Made by a program: the position numbers and the translations under genes
In this document: piece after piece, positions 45,724-58,178 of the stretch
Layout: every line of letters begins with the position of its first letter
Position numbering within the stretch: position 1 is the first letter of the stretch
From: Myceligenerans pegani
Lineage (GTDB): Bacteria > Actinomycetota > Actinomycetes > Actinomycetales > Cellulomonadaceae
Assembly (NCBI RefSeq): GCF_014892515.1
Contig: NZ_JADBGR010000095.1
Location: 1 to 64,000, forward strand
Direction: 5' to 3'
DNA length: 64,000 nucleotides
Notes under the pieces: model-generated
Told to the model about the DNA's origin: nothing
Databases searched by the model: none
Seen by the model: the letters and a program-made list of their open reading frames with translations, nothing else

Positions 45724-48700
45724 ATGTTCCTCTTGGAGCCGGGGCGTCCCGAGACTCTCGTGCACTCCGCCAGCGACCTGGTCGTGGCCGGCGAGTGCGA
45801 GTTCCGGCTGCTCCGGCGGCTCGACGAGCTGCTCGGGCGGATTCCGCCGCGGCCGCGTGCCGAGGACGAGATGCTCGCGCGCACCGCAGCCCTCGGTGAC
45901 GCGCACGAGAGCCGCGTGCTCGCGTCCTACCAGGCACGGTTCGGCGTGACGACGCTCCCGGAGGAGCACGACGGCGCTCCGGCGGGCGGGGTGTTCAGCG
46001 TCCCGCTCGCGCGGCGCATGTCGCACGACGAACTCACCGCTGCCCACGAGCGCACGCTCGCCGCGATGGAGCGTGGGGCTGACGTCGTCTTCCAGGCGTC
46101 CTTTTTCGACGGCCGCTTCCACGGCCGGGCCGATTTCCTGGTACGCGACCCGGCGCGCGACGCTCGGCGCGCCCCTGCCGGACCGGATGCGCCCGGTCCG
46201 GGCCACGCAGGGCCGGGCCTCACCACTGGTGGGATGCCCGGTCCGCGCTACGCCGTCTACGACACCAAGCTGGCGCGTCGCGCGAAGGTGCGGGCCCTGC
46301 TGCAACTCGCCGCGTACGCCGACCAACTGATCGCGGCGCGGATCGACCCGACCGATCGGGTCCACCTGATCCTCGGCGACCGGACCGAGACCCACCACGA
46401 CCTCGGCGACGTGCTCCCCGTGTTCCGCCGGCGTCGCGAGCGCCTCCTCCAGGTCCTCGAGGAACATGTCTCCGACGACGCCCCGGCGGCCTGGGGTGAC
46501 GACCGATGGCTGGCCTGCGGTCGCCTCGGCGTGTGCCAGGACTGCGCCGAGGCGGCCGCCTCGCACCGCGATGTGCTGCTGGTCAAGGGCGTCTACGAGC
46601 GGCAGCGTGCCCGCCTGGCGGCGGGCGGGATGACCACCATCGACGCCCTGGCCGTCGCGGAGGCGCCACCCGACGGGATGGCGGCGGCACGGTTCGAGAG
46701 CCTGCGGGAACAGGCCCGCCTGCAACTCGGCCTGGACGCGGGACATGGCTCGGTCGCGCTGGACGGCGGTTCGGACGCGCCGGGTGGCGACGGACCTGCC
46801 GCGGGGCCCGGTTCGGCCGAGGACGGCGACGCCGGGCCTGACGGCACCCCCGCCGGGGCACGGCTGCGGTGGAAGATCGTCGACCCGCAGCCGATCGACA
46901 ACCTGCCCGAGCCGTCCCCGGGTGACATCTTCTTCGACTTCGAGGGCGACCCCTTGTGGGAGGAGGCACGCCCCTCGGGCGAGCGCGCCGCGACAGGGCT
47001 CGACTACCTGTTCGGCTGGGTGGAGCGGCCGCCGTCGCCGGACGGGAAGCCGCCTTTCACCGTTCTGTGGGCCGACGACCTGACCGCAGAGCGCGACGCG
47101 CTCGTGCGGTTCGTGGACCACGTGAACGCGCGCCGGGCCGTGCATCCCGGGATGCACGTGTACCACTACGCGCCGTACGAGAAGACGCATCTGCTGTCCA
47201 TCGCCACGCGGCACGGCACCTACGAGGAGGAGGTCGACGACCTGCTGCGGGAGGGCGTGCTCGTGGACCTCTACGCGGTGGTGCGGTCGGCGCTGCGGAC
47301 CAGTGACCGGTCGCTGTCGATCAAGAAGCTCGAGCCGCTCTACATGGCCGACGATCCGGCGCGGGAAGGGGTGAAGGACGCCGCCACGTCCGTGATCGAG
47401 TACGCGGAGTACGCACAGGCCGTGGTGGAGGGGCGGATGGATGATGCGGGCGGTTTGCGGCGGCGGATTCTGGAGTACAACGAGTACGACTGTCGGTCTA
47501 CCTTGCGGTTGCTGGAGTGGTTGCGGTGGGCACGGGGACAGGCGCAGGTCTCTGGTGGGGTTTCTTCCGTGGGTGGGGCGGCGTTCGAGCAGGAGAACGC
47601 TCGTAGGGCGGCCCAGGGTCAGGGAGACCTCGCGCGGACGCGTTCACGGGCCCCAGGGGGCCCTCCACTTCGGGCCTTTACGTCCGCGCGAGGTCTCCCT
47701 GACCCTGGGCCTCGGTTCGGCGAGGAGCTGCAGGCCGTAGGTGGTGGGGACCGGGGCAGTGAGGGCGCATGGGATGAGGCTGCACGGGGTGAGGGTGCGG
47801 CTGCACGGGGTGAGGCTGCGGCGAGTGAGGCTGCGGGTGGGGATGCGGCTGCGGCGGGTGGGGGTGGTGGGGAGGGCTCGCGGAGTCGGAGGCGGTTGGA
47901 GGAGCGGGAGCGGCGGAGGGCTCTGGCTCAGGAGATTCGGGAGGTTGTGGGAGAGAGCGCCAGGGGGCGAAGTGGTGCCGAGCAGGCGCTGGCGTTGCTC
48001 GGCGCTGCTCTCGAGTACCACGTGCGGGAGGACAAGCCGTTCTGGCAGGAGCATTTCGGGCGGCTGGAGCTGCCGATCGACGAGTGGCCGGGTCAGGGAT
48101 CGACGTTTCGCGTGGAACGCGGGCGCGTCGTCCGGGACTGGGCGGTCGAGACCGGGCGGAGGATTCCTTCGCGCGACGTCGAGCTCGCGGGCCGGATGCT
48201 CGACGCGTCCCGGGTCGGCGACTCCGATCTGGTGGCGGGGACGAATGTGGAGGTGCTCTACGACAGGCCGGTGCCGCCCGTCGTGCGGAGCCTGCCGGAC
48301 CGGGCGGTGCGGGGTGCGCACTCCGGGGGTGAGATCGTCGACGTGCGACCGGAGACCGACCTGGGCGACGACGCCACGGGGACCGGAGGCACGGCCGACG
48401 TCGTCGTCCTCCGGGAACGGCTACGGCGGGACGCGAGTGAGCACGACCAGCTTCCGGTGGCCCTCTCCCCCGGGGCCGGGCCGGGGCACGGGCCCCAGGA
48501 GCAGGCGATCGAGGAGGCGGCCACCGCGGCCCTGCGGTCGTGGCGCCGGGGAGACGGACTGCCCCCCGGGCCCGCCACGGACATCCTGGAACGGCGCCCG
48601 CCGCGGCTGGTGAGCCGCGGCGGCCTGCCCTCCCCCGGCGACCACGACGACATGGTGACCACCGTGGAGCACGCCCTGCGGGACCTCGACGGCTCCTACA

Positions 48701-49965
48701 TCGCCGTGCAGGGGCCGCCCGGGACCGGCAAGACGTACGTCGGATCGCATGTCGTGGCTCGGCTCGTCCGTGACGGATGGCGGGTCGGCGTGGTGGCGCA
48801 GTCCCACGCCGCCGTCGAGAACATGCTGCAGGCGGCCGTGGCCAAGGCGGGGGTGCCGCCCGCCGTCGTCGCCAAGAAGAAGCACGACGCCGGGGTGCCG
48901 CGCGGACGCGGGATGCCGCGCCGAGCGGGCGGCCCTCTGGACGGCGGTCCCGGGTGCGTCGACACTGCGGGCGCCGGCACAGCAGGCGCCGAGACGGCGG
49001 ATGCTCCGCTCGAGCCGCCATGGCAGGAGTTGAGCGCGGATGCGCTCGCGGATTTCGCCGCCCGGCGACCCGGCGGGTGCGTGGTGGGTGGGACCGCGTG
49101 GGACTTCGCGCACCGGCGATGGCCCGCGGCCGGGCTCGACCTGCTCGTGATCGACGAGGCCGGGCAGTTCTCCCTGGCCGACGCCGGCGCCGTCGCGCGG
49201 TCGGCGTCGCGGCTCCTGCTGCTCGGCGATCCGCAGCAGCTCCCCCAGGTGACACAGGGCCGGCATCCCGAACCCGTCGACTCGTCGGTGCTCGGCTGGC
49301 TCTCGGGCACCGAGCCGGTCCTGCCCGAAGAACTCGGCTACTTCCTGGAGACGTCCTGGCGGATGCACCCGGCGTTGTGCCGCAAGGTGTCGGACCTCGC
49401 CTACTCCGGAAAGCTGGACGCCCATCCGGTCGCCGCGGCGCGATCGCTCGCCGGCGTGGAGCCCGGCGTGCACCACGTTCCGGTGCCGCACGAGGGCAAC
49501 CGACTCTCCTCGCCCGAGGAGGCGGCGGAGGTGGTCCGGCAGGTCCGGGCCATGGTGGGCCGCGAGTGGTCCGACCCTGGAGAACTGACCGGTGCCGTAC
49601 GGCCCCTGGGTCAGGAGGACGTCGTGGTGGTGGCCGCCTACAACGCGCAGGTGCATGTCGTCCGGCGTGCGCTCGCCGAGGCGGGCCTGGATCGCGTGCC
49701 GGTCGGGACCGTCGACCTCTTCCAGGGGCGGGAGGCACCCGTGGTGATCCTGACGCTCGCCGCGTCGTCGCCACACGACGTCTCCCGCGGCATGGGCTTC
49801 CTGCTGTCACGCAACCGGCTGAACGTGGCGGTGTCGCGGGCCCAGTGGTGCGCGCTCGTCGTCCGCTCGCCGCGCCTGACCGACTACGTCCCGGGCGATC
49901 TCGAGGCGAACGGGCTCCGCCATCTGCTCGACCTCGGCGCCTTCCTCCGCCTCACGTCGGACTGA
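45724..49965 (+). CDS. RecB-like nuclease / RNase-H fold / SF1 helicase
   Basis: A 1413-residue TM0106-family protein. Residues about 1-300 are a RecB/Cas4-like nuclease with VYDTKLAR (D-x-K near 178-180), a QLAAYADQL motif near 194 and a Cys cluster ACGRLGVCQDC near 262. Residues about 400-610 are an RNase_H_2-type 3'-5' exonuclease-like domain (IFFDFEGDPLWEEA). The C-terminal part is an SF1 helicase: Walker A GPPGTGKT at 997-1004, Walker B LLVIDEAGQFS near 1143, and VAVSRAQWCALVV near 1375. It probably unwinds and cuts nucleic acid in repair or defence. Residues about 629-663 are encoded by a 102-bp palindrome, and residues about 670-740 by low-complexity DNA with different codon use. TAGACC six bases before the ATG suggests a leaderless start. 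Confidence 0.88.
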   Translation: MFLLEPGRPETLVHSASDLVVAGECEFRLLRRLDELLGRIPPRPRAEDEMLARTAALGDAHESRVLASYQARFGVTTLPEEHDGAPAGGVFSVPLARRMSHDELTAAHERTLAAMERGADVVFQASFFDGRFHGRADFLVRDPARDARRAPAGPDAPGPGHAGPGLTTGGMPGPRYAVYDTKLARRAKVRALLQLAAYADQLIAARIDPTDRVHLILGDRTETHHDLGDVLPVFRRRRERLLQVLEEHVSDDAPAAWGDDRWLACGRLGVCQDCAEAAASHRDVLLVKGVYERQRARLAAGGMTTIDALAVAEAPPDGMAAARFESLREQARLQLGLDAGHGSVALDGGSDAPGGDGPAAGPGSAEDGDAGPDGTPAGARLRWKIVDPQPIDNLPEPSPGDIFFDFEGDPLWEEARPSGERAATGLDYLFGWVERPPSPDGKPPFTVLWADDLTAERDALVRFVDHVNARRAVHPGMHVYHYAPYEKTHLLSIATRHGTYEEEVDDLLREGVLVDLYAVVRSALRTSDRSLSIKKLEPLYMADDPAREGVKDAATSVIEYAEYAQAVVEGRMDDAGGLRRRILEYNEYDCRSTLRLLEWLRWARGQAQVSGGVSSVGGAAFEQENARRAAQGQGDLARTRSRAPGGPPLRAFTSARGLPDPGPRFGEELQAVGGGDRGSEGAWDEAARGEGAAARGEAAASEAAGGDAAAAGGGGGEGSRSRRRLEERERRRALAQEIREVVGESARGRSGAEQALALLGAALEYHVREDKPFWQEHFGRLELPIDEWPGQGSTFRVERGRVVRDWAVETGRRIPSRDVELAGRMLDASRVGDSDLVAGTNVEVLYDRPVPPVVRSLPDRAVRGAHSGGEIVDVRPETDLGDDATGTGGTADVVVLRERLRRDASEHDQLPVALSPGAGPGHGPQEQAIEEAATAALRSWRRGDGLPPGPATDILERRPPRLVSRGGLPSPGDHDDMVTTVEHALRDLDGSYIAVQGPPGTGKTYVGSHVVARLVRDGWRVGVVAQSHAAVENMLQAAVAKAGVPPAVVAKKKHDAGVPRGRGMPRRAGGPLDGGPGCVDTAGAGTAGAETADAPLEPPWQELSADALADFAARRPGGCVVGGTAWDFAHRRWPAAGLDLLVIDEAGQFSLADAGAVARSASRLLLLGDPQQLPQVTQGRHPEPVDSSVLGWLSGTEPVLPEELGYFLETSWRMHPALCRKVSDLAYSGKLDAHPVAAARSLAGVEPGVHHVPVPHEGNRLSSPEEAAEVVRQVRAMVGREWSDPGELTGAVRPLGQEDVVVVAAYNAQVHVVRRALAEAGLDRVPVGTVDLFQGREAPVVILTLAASSPHDVSRGMGFLLSRNRLNVAVSRAQWCALVVRSPRLTDYVPGDLEANGLRHLLDLGAFLRLTSD
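47610..47711. repeat. 102-bp palindromic element in helicase gene
   Basis: Perfect 31-bp inverted repeat (47610-47640 and 47681-47711; the left arm begins GGCCCAGGGTCAGGGAGACC) enclosing 40 bases with an inner GGGCCCC/GGGGCCC hairpin. Total length is 102 bp, exactly 34 codons, so the gene frame is kept. It looks like an inserted palindromic mobile repeat. Confidence 0.8.
47765..47880. repeat. G-rich degenerate tandem repeat
   Basis: Units like GAGGCTGCACGGGGT repeat imperfectly and encode Ala/Gly/Glu linker sequence. At 47856-47876 GGGTGGGGGTGGTGGGGAGGG fits a G-quadruplex pattern on the coding strand. Confidence 0.6.
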
Positions 49966-50121: not shown

Positions 50122-51543
50122 ATGGCCGTGCGCTTCAACCCGCCCCCGGGTTGGCAAGTGCCCCCGGGATTCCGACCCGACGCCAGCTGGGTGCCCGACC
50201 CGTCCTGGCCCCCGGCCCCGCCCGGCTGGGAGTACTGGATCACCGAGCCGAACCCGGCGCCGCCCGCAGCGCCCCAGCCCCCGGCGCCGACCCCCGCCCC
50301 GGAGCCGTCGACACAGCCGGCGCCGTCGCACCCGGCACCGACGTCGCGCCCGACACCGACGCGCCCGACACCGACGCACTCGGCACCGACGCCGAACCCG
50401 GCCGCGCGGGAACACGACGCGACCGCGACACCGGCCGGCGGCGCTCCGCAGGGCGCCCCCGTCGACGAGCTGACCGTGCGCCGTGCGCCCGACGACGCGG
50501 AGATCACGCGGGCGCTCGACCAGCCGACCGCCGTCCTGTCGTCAGGTACCCCCGAGGCGAACCGGCCGGGAACGGACGAGACGATGATCCGCCCGGCGCC
50601 CGGCCCCGACGGCCCTGCCCCGCGCGAGGACACGAGCACGATGGCGCTCGAAGCCGTGCCCGGTGCCGGCGCACCGCTCCCTCACCCGCCGGGCCAGGGC
50701 TCGCCCGGCCAGGCTCCTCCCCTGCCCCCCGGCATGCCGGCAGGACCCGGTGGTCCCGGCTTCGGGGGCTACGGCGGGCCGGCGGGACCGGGAGTCCCGG
50801 GGCCCGGTGGCCCGGGCGGTCCGGGCATGCTGCCGCCCGGCGGGCAGGCGCCGAAGAGTTCCGTGGCCGCGATGGGACAGAACCTGCTCGGCTCGATCAA
50901 GAATTTCGGCAACAGGTCCCGTCAGCACGACCCGACGGCCGCGCCACCGCTGCCTGCCGGCCCGGGCGCACCCGTGCCGGCGGGTCCTGGCATGCACGGT
51001 CCCGGCGGGCGCCCGCCCGCCGGACGGCCGGGCGCCCCCGGAGGCAGCAGGTCGCCCGGTTCCCCGCTCCTCATCGGGGTGGGGATCGCCGGTGCGGCGC
51101 TGGGCGTGATCATCGGCGTCGTCGTCACCGCAGGCCTGCAGGCGGACGCCAACCAGGCGATCACCAACGCCGAGCGGATCAAGGCCGAGGTCGCGGTCGA
51201 GCGCGAGGAGCTCGAGGCGGATCGCGCCGAGCTCAAGAAGGAGCGGGACGAGGTCGCACAACGGGAGCAGGAGCTCAGCAAACGCGAGTCCGAGCTCACC
51301 AAGAACGAGCGTGACCTGAGGGAGCAGCAGGAACAGCAGCAGCGCGAGCAGCAGCAGCGGGAGGAGCAGGACGACAGGGAGGAGAACAACGGCAACGGGA
51401 ACGGAAACGGCGGTTTCCAGTTCTTCTTCACCTGCGACGACGTCCGCGCGGCGGGCCGCGCACCGCTCCCCGATTCCGACCCGAGCTACCGCTGGGACCT
51501 CGACCGGAACGGCAACGGTCTCGCGTGCGAGGACGGCGAGTAA
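50122..51543 (+). CDS. Membrane protein with excalibur domain
   Basis: A 473-residue protein. The N-terminus (NPPPGWQVPPGFRPDASWVPDPSWPPAPPGWEYW) is a Pro/Trp-rich motif common in actinobacterial membrane proteins. A long Pro/Gly/Ala-rich cytosolic stretch leads to one membrane helix (about residues 313-338), a charged coiled coil (about 345-415, AELKKERDEVAQREQELSKRESEL) and a C-terminal excalibur domain (FTCDDVRAAGRAPLPDSDPSYRWDLDRNGNGLACE), a small Asp-rich calcium-binding unit with two Cys. Probably a surface or envelope protein; function unknown. The ATG follows TTGAAGGAGAAACC. Confidence 0.82.
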   Translation: MAVRFNPPPGWQVPPGFRPDASWVPDPSWPPAPPGWEYWITEPNPAPPAAPQPPAPTPAPEPSTQPAPSHPAPTSRPTPTRPTPTHSAPTPNPAAREHDATATPAGGAPQGAPVDELTVRRAPDDAEITRALDQPTAVLSSGTPEANRPGTDETMIRPAPGPDGPAPREDTSTMALEAVPGAGAPLPHPPGQGSPGQAPPLPPGMPAGPGGPGFGGYGGPAGPGVPGPGGPGGPGMLPPGGQAPKSSVAAMGQNLLGSIKNFGNRSRQHDPTAAPPLPAGPGAPVPAGPGMHGPGGRPPAGRPGAPGGSRSPGSPLLIGVGIAGAALGVIIGVVVTAGLQADANQAITNAERIKAEVAVEREELEADRAELKKERDEVAQREQELSKRESELTKNERDLREQQEQQQREQQQREEQDDREENNGNGNGNGGFQFFFTCDDVRAAGRAPLPDSDPSYRWDLDRNGNGLACEDGE

Positions 51544-51563
51544 GCGGCCAGCGGGAAAGGATG

Positions 51564-51605
51564 AACGGCCCGAGGCAGAACCCCAGATTTCTGCCCCGGG
51601 CCGTT
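51564..51605. terminator. Bidirectional terminator
   Basis: 17-bp stem with one mismatch (left arm begins AACGGCCCGAGG) and an 8-base loop, followed by CGTTTGTT. It lies between the convergent excalibur gene and the sigma-linked gene. Confidence 0.75.
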
Positions 51606-51675
51606 CGTTTGTTCCCGCCGGAGGAACCCAGACTCCGACGGGAAGTCTTGTGCGGCCCTCACGGGCCGGGTCGTG

Positions 51676-58073: not shown

Positions 58074-58178
58074 TGAGGCCGGCCGGTTGTCGGAGAAGGC
58101 CGGTCCGCTGTCGTGGTCGGTCGCTCGATGGACCGGCTTCCCGACATCGGACCCGCCGCCGACAACCGGCCGGCCTCA
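58074..58178. repeat. 105-bp nested palindrome
   Basis: A perfect 20-bp inverted repeat (TGAGGCCGGCCGGTTGTCGG and its complement, 58074-58093 and 58159-58178) encloses a second 8-bp repeat (GCCGGTCC/GGACCGGC). It lies between the convergent metS and alditol oxidase genes and ends six bases from the latter's stop. Confidence 0.75.

Follow-up and report, generated by a model that had tools for sequence, protein, structure and literature searches.

What is a perfect 31-bp palindrome doing in the middle of a helicase gene of Myceligenerans pegani, and how do the two arms of such a palindrome stay matched? We approached these questions from the copy in the window, which is the whole stretch of DNA that was analyzed (64,000 nucleotides, positions 1 to 64,000 of contig NZ_JADBGR010000095.1). 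Our preferred reading, to which we assign a probability of about 0.58, is that the palindrome is a dispersed element in which one arm serves as the source for the other, so that the two remain matched, most likely through template switching during replication, and that the helicase carries it as a passenger.

The copy in the helicase gene

The initial annotation, which was made from the letters alone, described a perfect 31-bp inverted repeat around a 40-base core with an inner GC hairpin, 102 bp in all, and a repeat search recovered the same structure. The two arms (47610-47640 and 47681-47711) are 31 nt each, are 100% complementary, and have 40 nt between them; the inner hairpin at 47648-47663 reads GGGCCCC-A-GGGGGCCC. 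Among the 25 of 33 window pairs that were listed (at least 20 nt, gap of 300 or less), the element at 47610-47711 is the longest perfect inverted repeat, and there is just one other perfect pair, of 20 bp. When we scanned the window with a 24-nt arm pattern, allowing up to 3 mismatches, the two matches were the two arms (0.00 expected). Folded as single-stranded DNA, the element reaches -54.1 kcal/mol, versus a mean of -22.6 for shuffled sequences, and 0 of 200 shuffles were as stable. The features of this locus are:

45724..49965, plus strand: host gene, encoding a 1413-aa RNase H-like / AAA helicase (open reading frame and Pfam)
46927..47523, plus strand: RNase_H_2 domain, upstream of the element (Pfam)
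47610..47711, plus strand: palindromic element, 102 bp (positions 1-103 of covariance model R1; 106.4 bits, E 5.9e-21 in its own genome, from a model built from 60 copies that include this one)
47610..47640, plus strand: left arm, 31 nt, which varies among copies (repeat search, alignment of copies)
47641..47680, plus strand: core, 40 nt, conserved across the family (alignment of copies)
47641..47648, plus strand: conserved head of the core, CGTTCACG (CGTT in 88-90 of 90 copies per position; TCACG in 60 of 60)
47648..47663, plus strand: inner GC hairpin, GGGCCCC-A-GGGGGCCC (helix 2 of the 60-copy alignment, with 99.4% of cells paired)
47664..47674, plus strand: conserved tail of the core, TCCACTTCGGG (alignment of 60 copies)
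47681..47711, plus strand: right arm, 31 nt, the reverse complement of the left arm (repeat search)
48670..49863, plus strand: AAA domains, downstream of the element (Pfam)

As the initial annotation had claimed, the insertion is in frame: the element amounts to 34 codons (with its edge codons, it reads AAQGQGDLARTRSRAPGGPPLRAFTSARGLPDPGP), and the open reading frame at 45724-49965 stays open across it. The proposed location in a linker also held up. Pfam finds RNase_H_2 at residues 402-600 and AAA domains from residue 983, so the element, at about residues 629-663, lies in an interdomain linker of the helicase.

Empty orthologous helicases, which the initial annotation had suggested looking for, do exist: the element is absent from the orthologs in the three congeners that were searched and in G194 (Promicromonospora genus group), with linkers that could not be aligned. 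Four helicases from the Promicromonospora group carry the element in the same linker and in a different reading frame; these may go back to a single old insertion or to two independent ones. The element in the helicase is most likely a tolerated passenger that adds 34 residues to a poorly conserved linker.

Some other repeats in the window should be mentioned. Beside the element, the helicase linker at 47759-47866 is made of short GC-rich direct repeats, and the linkers of the congeners are shorter. A 33-nt inverted repeat (82% complementary, 8-nt gap) at 51548-51621 is directly behind an open reading frame that ends at 51543 and is probably an ordinary terminator. A perfect 20-bp inverted repeat with 65 nt between its arms is at 58074-58178.

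Range, anatomy, and positions of the family

A DNA search of the genome of M. pegani found further copies on other contigs, and the covariance model brought the total in this genome to six copies of the element (150 candidates scored). Across 221 related genomes, the model matched 38 genomes from 6 of 25 genera; this search scored 18 candidates per genome, and for three genomes, which reached 18 matches, the counts are therefore minimum values. With a DNA query instead of the model, 40 of the 221 genomes matched (E <= 0.01), including four weak matches in genera without model matches. An exact pattern for the core, run against a collection of 84,980 species, matched 75 stretches, all of them from Promicromonosporaceae by title (Isoptericola, Promicromonospora, Krasilnikoviella, Puerhibacterium, Xylanimonas, and Myceligenerans, which NCBI places in this family). 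Within what was searched, the element family is confined to Promicromonosporaceae. One congener (G001) has no copy. There were no exact core matches in viral contigs and no blastn matches in plasmids and phages (E <= 1e-3). We also rejected a known RNA family for the window copy: a comparison of positions 47000-48200 to Rfam 15 gave 10 matches with E <= 5, all of them under the gathering score. In the open-access literature that we searched on these genera and palindromes (titles and the starts of abstracts), we did not find this element described.

The initial annotation reasoned that a mobile palindrome should have multiple dispersed copies, and this is what we found, in the genome itself (six copies) and in its relatives. 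The opposite pattern, in which all orthologs would share the palindrome and it would occur at no other site, does not describe this family, which has dispersed copies and empty orthologs. The initial annotation also raised the possibility of an assembly artifact. The assembly is a draft in 111 contigs, and we found nothing else to favor an artifact or a chance palindrome; because the same core occurs in 38 separately assembled genomes, often with several copies per contig, an artifact is refuted, and chance or artifact is extremely improbable as the explanation.

We analyzed the family's anatomy with several sets of copies. A smaller set had 93 copies, of which three with odd boundaries were dropped, leaving 90 for a sequence logo. 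For the larger set, 235 model hits were reduced to 198 by removing opposite-strand echoes and overlaps and then to 160 distinct copies by removing identical elements. These form 70 clusters by the similarity of their flanks. The clusters are roughly sites, except that a site with opposite orientations in two species counts as two clusters.

In the logo, conservation is high in the core and partial over roughly the innermost 10 positions of the arms, and the outer arm has little information. Nevertheless, the arms pair. Each of the 31 stem pairs has changed on both sides among 60 aligned copies, in which 95.4% of the cells of the whole structure are paired, as compared to 62.8% after shuffling and 41-48% after sliding. 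Of the six pairs of the inner hairpin, three are invariant, two have changed on both sides, and one deviates in nothing but an unpaired cell. Elsewhere in the family, this hairpin takes the form GCGCCCC or GGGCGCC, with partners that match.

The stem also has a defined length. Across 158 copies (two truncated copies of the 160 were left out, and the register was set for the best inner pairing), the fraction paired is 0.92-1.00 at positions 1-28 and then falls to 0.84, 0.73, 0.58, 0.32, and 0.16; farther out, it is roughly 0.25-0.39. In 119 of the 158 copies, no more than one of the first 29 pairs is missing, and imperfect stems are few (22 or fewer of 29 pairs in four copies). Good pairing reaches position 38 or more in just five of the 158; in two copies from M. 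pegani's own genome (L003 and L005), pairing extends to about position 50. When arms from different clusters are compared, their identity peaks at 15 of 31; the arms mostly differ from cluster to cluster. The sharp drop in pairing, together with the variable letters, implies a stem whose length is measured at 30-31 bp and whose sequence is largely free. The larger set was gathered by a model that rewards pairing, which would miss decayed copies, but the copies found by the core alone (the pattern search with 75 stretches) pair just as well. In short, the core is shared, the arms pair over 30-31 bp in nearly all copies, and the letters of the arms mostly vary from site to site and also, at one site, from species to species, while the two arms stay complementary.

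Relative to genes, as called by our own codon-score gene finder (whose calls were compared only with the open reading frames around the window element), 79 of the 160 copies are in convergent gaps, 45 are in tandem gaps, and one is in a divergent gap; 28 are within genes, four overlap a gene end, and three are at the edge of the locus. By cluster, these are 37 convergent, 22 tandem, one divergent, eight inside genes, and two overlapping. For comparison, control intergenic DNA that lacks the element has 14.5% of its length in convergent gaps, 55.1% in tandem gaps, and 30.4% in divergent gaps. In 74 of the 79 convergent copies, and in 35 of 37 if each cluster is counted once, the TTCACG side is the one closer to the stop codon of its own gene, and the median distance of convergent copies to the stop codon is 24 nt. 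Among loci with two copies, 7 of 12 have both in a convergent gap, each oriented as its own gene. A site just behind the stop codon, in an orientation set by the gene, is strongly favored.

These positions fit an element that acts at the 3' ends of mRNAs, as a terminator or a stabilizer, with selection on the mRNA hairpin. Nevertheless, we consider this explanation unlikely. None of the 124 convergent or tandem copies has TTTT within the 15 nt downstream, so we rejected an intrinsic terminator with a T-tract, and with only six copies in the genome of M. pegani, the element cannot be a general terminator. Furthermore, although 30 of the 45 tandem copies run along the genes, 15 run against them, and five of the eight clusters inside genes are in the sense orientation. 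The types of mismatches in the stems also argue against selection on the mRNA (see below).

The 28 copies inside genes (15 sense and 13 antisense; 8 of 70 clusters) fall in six host genes, which we take from their Pfam domains to be this helicase, GcvP, an HrpA-like helicase, a fusion of a hydrolase and an AMP-ligase, a family-4 glycosyltransferase, and an ABC-F-like ATPase. Five of these hosts have the element between Pfam matches, and the HrpA-like protein has it inside the match to DUF3418. Lengths of 101 or 104 were seen for 23 of 28 copies in genes versus 44 of 130 other copies (p 3.6e-6, with copies of one gene not being independent), which is expected if the reading frame is kept. The GcvP linker of G002 (L327) contains a short imperfect palindrome, absent from the list of the repeat finder, that resembles the arms of a congener's element and lacks the core; it is possibly the remnant of a deletion.

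The element spreads, as is evident from its being dispersed, present or absent at given sites, and equipped with near-identical arms at different loci of G144 (29-31 of 31 alike). A MITE of a known transposon would be expected to have a target-site duplication and ends that match those of the transposase's own element; we saw no target duplication or clean insertion boundary, with the empty sites that were compared being much diverged. Joining the flanks of the 160 copies gave 199 spanning matches; those listed were diverged linkers, repeat arrays, or the element's own array or stem, with no exact boundary among them. The transposase family Y1_Tnp (PF01797 in Pfam) is in none of the 38 genomes that carry the element, and in just two of the 221 genomes (G077 and G130).

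Some copies have other repeats nearby. In G144 and G149, short CGAGGTAGT-type repeats, spaced about 20 nt apart, lie up to about 350 bases from the element (L256, L257, L259, L260, L087, L264, and L266); they are direct on the left of the element and inverted on its right. In G145 and G139, the intergenic DNA at gene ends contains arrays of GAGTCAGCGC (L216-L240). AGTCAGCGC occurs 44 times near 7 of the 15 copies in G139 and 0 times in the far DNA that was examined; near the copies in G145 it occurs 40 times, with 6 occurrences in far DNA. In both G139/G145 and G144/G149, part of the copies lie amid arrays of short repeats; these repeats differ between the genomes and reverse their direction from one side of the element to the other. 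Such a mosaic resembles BIMEs, and recent spread may be the spread of the whole mosaic of repeats.

How the arms stay matched

To follow the arms in place, we compared orthologous copies in 55 disjoint pairs whose flanks are 78-95% identical. Of 1595 stem positions, 439 had two-sided changes, affecting both arms, and 76 had one-sided changes. The mean difference was 0.299 per arm, as compared to 0.127 in the flanks and 0.082 in the core. Not all pairs conform: in the two closest, every change is one-sided (2 and 4), and in the third closest there are none. That the arms evolve in concert is well supported.

Could selection for pairing account for this? For copies within genes (31 overlapping pairs, excluding those with a third-position difference above 0.30), two-sided changes in the arms occurred at 0.187 per position, versus 0.247 for third codon positions and 0.319 for fourfold sites. 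If each two-sided change began as a harmful one-sided step that awaited compensation, then the rate should be well below neutral; it is not far from neutral, which on this theoretical argument is hard to obtain by selection alone.

A second line of evidence is from the glycosyltransferase gene, where the copies of two species (L147 and L099) are at the same site and have arms that are identical at 27 and 28 of 31 positions, but the core is inverted. Two relatives have the same site with no element. Although 85 flipped pairs were flagged, most of them link the two copies of a two-copy gap or involve repeat-rich gaps, so we claim only this one inversion. In the hydrolase/AMP-ligase gene, three copies (L274, L134, and L146) are in the same linker region as a fourth (L255), from a different genome, and in the opposite orientation, with 17-18 of 31 arm positions alike; this may reflect inversion or a separate insertion.

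Given the two-sided changes and the inverted core, one arm seems to be copied from the other. Template switching has been reported to homogenize the arms of palindromes and to invert their spacers (PMC8604942). Another study treats template switching likewise and reports that multiple compensations are enriched, while compensation with inversion of the loop is rare and not enriched (PMC8794818). Template switching is our best inference for the cause of the concerted arms. A hairpin would form in one strand as it is replicated, and a template switch by the polymerase would then copy one arm from the other. This would account for near-neutral two-sided changes in the arms, for a core that inverts without leaving its site, and for palindromes that occasionally extend into their flanks. 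The core would persist by selection or because fresh copies spread, and movement would need an enzyme. However, template switching gives no reason for the end of the stem at 31 bp, which holds in all but the few copies with good pairing out to position 38 or more. It also fails to predict how copies are oriented behind genes and the asymmetry of mismatches that is described below.

We also considered whether the arms are made anew at each insertion, as an inverted copy of the DNA that flanks the target. This would account for arms that mostly differ between clusters and for the two copies that pair to about position 50. But the length of the arms is fixed near 31 bp, their inner third is partly conserved, and near-identical arms occur at different loci. 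Also, the empty glycosyltransferase sites have no evident arm sequence, although linkers are too diverged to decide the matter. Overall, we view arms derived from the target as very unlikely.

To examine the mismatches in the stems, we counted them once per cluster, position, and type, on the top strand of the core. A.C mismatches outnumber G.T mismatches by 60 to 23 (p 6e-5), and pyrimidine-pyrimidine mismatches outnumber purine-purine mismatches by 25 to 7 (p 0.002). The bias was first noticed in the 90 copies, and because the larger set largely includes them, these counts are not an independent test. Antisense copies inside genes have no bias (5 and 5, which are small numbers). Selection on an mRNA hairpin would favor G.U, but A.C is the commoner of the two on the mRNA strand, which speaks against such selection. 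This leaves two readings: what counts is the hairpin of the antisense strand, or the top-strand hairpin is cleared of G.T, G.G, and T.T. The latter would fit NucS, which prefers G-T, G-G, and T-T and has weak or no action on others, notably A-C (PMC8228993). The genome of M. pegani has a match to NucS and no match to MutS_V.

If the antisense hairpin is what matters, then the working form of the element might be a folded single strand. A putative lineage-specific recombinase or transposase would read the core once the antisense strand has folded, similar to integron attC sites, which are read by their structure; the stem would be a 31-bp spacer that is free in sequence, with its pairing kept by selection. 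The sharp end of the stem at 30-31 bp fits this explanation, as do the conserved core, the dispersal of the element, and the preference for mismatches that are stable on the antisense strand. However, we found no candidate enzyme (Y1_Tnp being absent from all 38 carriers), the near-neutral rate of two-sided change is hard to achieve by selection alone, and the antisense copies in genes are unbiased. The preference of NucS (PMC8228993) also gives another reading of the asymmetry. We consider a folded strand with selected pairing to be rather unlikely.

We tentatively suggest, as a minority possibility, a new kind of mobile element that is defined by structure: only the core would be read by its letters, the 31-bp arms would be a helix of measured length and free sequence, and an enzyme of Promicromonosporaceae would read the antisense fold, insert the element in a set orientation behind transcribed genes, and renew the arms in the process.

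Comparison with known elements and significance

The initial annotation compared the palindrome to Rickettsia palindromic elements (RPEs), which are dispersed hairpin DNAs of about 100 bp that lie in frame in protein-coding genes and are tolerated as extra peptide. Part of this comparison stands: the family is dispersed and has empty orthologs, and some copies are in-frame insertions inside genes, mostly between domains. But such copies are a minority (28 of 160 copies, 8 of 70 clusters, and six host genes). Most copies are at the 3' ends of genes, and in another phylum. RPE copies have the whole palindrome sequence in common, while in this family, the core is common and the arms are not (identity between clusters peaks at 15 of 31). 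Also, RPEs are described as losing the identity of their repeats over time (PMC6649704), while here, the pairing is maintained (0.92-1.00 at positions 1-28). Thus, the family is RPE-like inside genes, yet it is not an RPE.

The closest parallel for the concerted arms is in the mitochondria of nematomorphs, whose genes contain perfect inverted repeats with arms that evolve together, and for which template switching has been proposed (PMC6649704). The 439 two-sided versus 76 one-sided changes that we observed are similar in kind. However, our family is dispersed, its copies have the conserved core in common, and the length of its arms is fixed; we saw no shared family sequence described for the nematomorph palindromes.

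REPs and BIMEs, with their RAYT proteins, are also short palindromes, many of which are behind genes and sometimes in inverted pairs, and some copies of our element are likewise in a mosaic with other repeats. But the REP unit is a palindrome of 20-40 bp with a GTAG or CGTC tag (PMC3733652), as compared to a variable 31-bp stem and a 40-nt core here. No REP-type tag is conserved at or outside the outer end of the stem; the inner stem has CGNCC, with a variable third letter. Since none of the 38 carriers contains Y1_Tnp, identity with the REP/RAYT system is not supported.

Integron attC sites, which are recombined by an integron integrase, have a conserved folded shape with variable sequence and have conserved R'' and R' boxes at the ends of the stem. 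They are similar to our family in combining a conserved fold with variable letters, in lying 3' of genes in the genes' orientation, and in favoring one strand. Here, however, the conserved letters are at the loop end, the outer stem has little information, and there are no cassette arrays. Mobile double-hairpin elements and repetitive hairpin elements of mitochondria are also small dispersed hairpins in intergenic DNA, but those of sponges have conserved stems and variable loops (PMC2800124), which is the opposite of what we see. Our family is set apart by a conserved core with arms that are largely free in sequence and evolve in concert.

These elements bear on the question of whether perfect stems survive mutation by slow compensatory selection or by copying one arm from the other. 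The 160 copies, which form 70 clusters, allow one small element to be tracked at its sites, whether these are inside genes or intergenic, and the core provides an internal control. They also extend in-frame palindromic insertions to the actinobacteria, far from Rickettsia. And if the hairpin of one strand is edited by NucS or is read by an enzyme, then the mismatch bias makes that testable.
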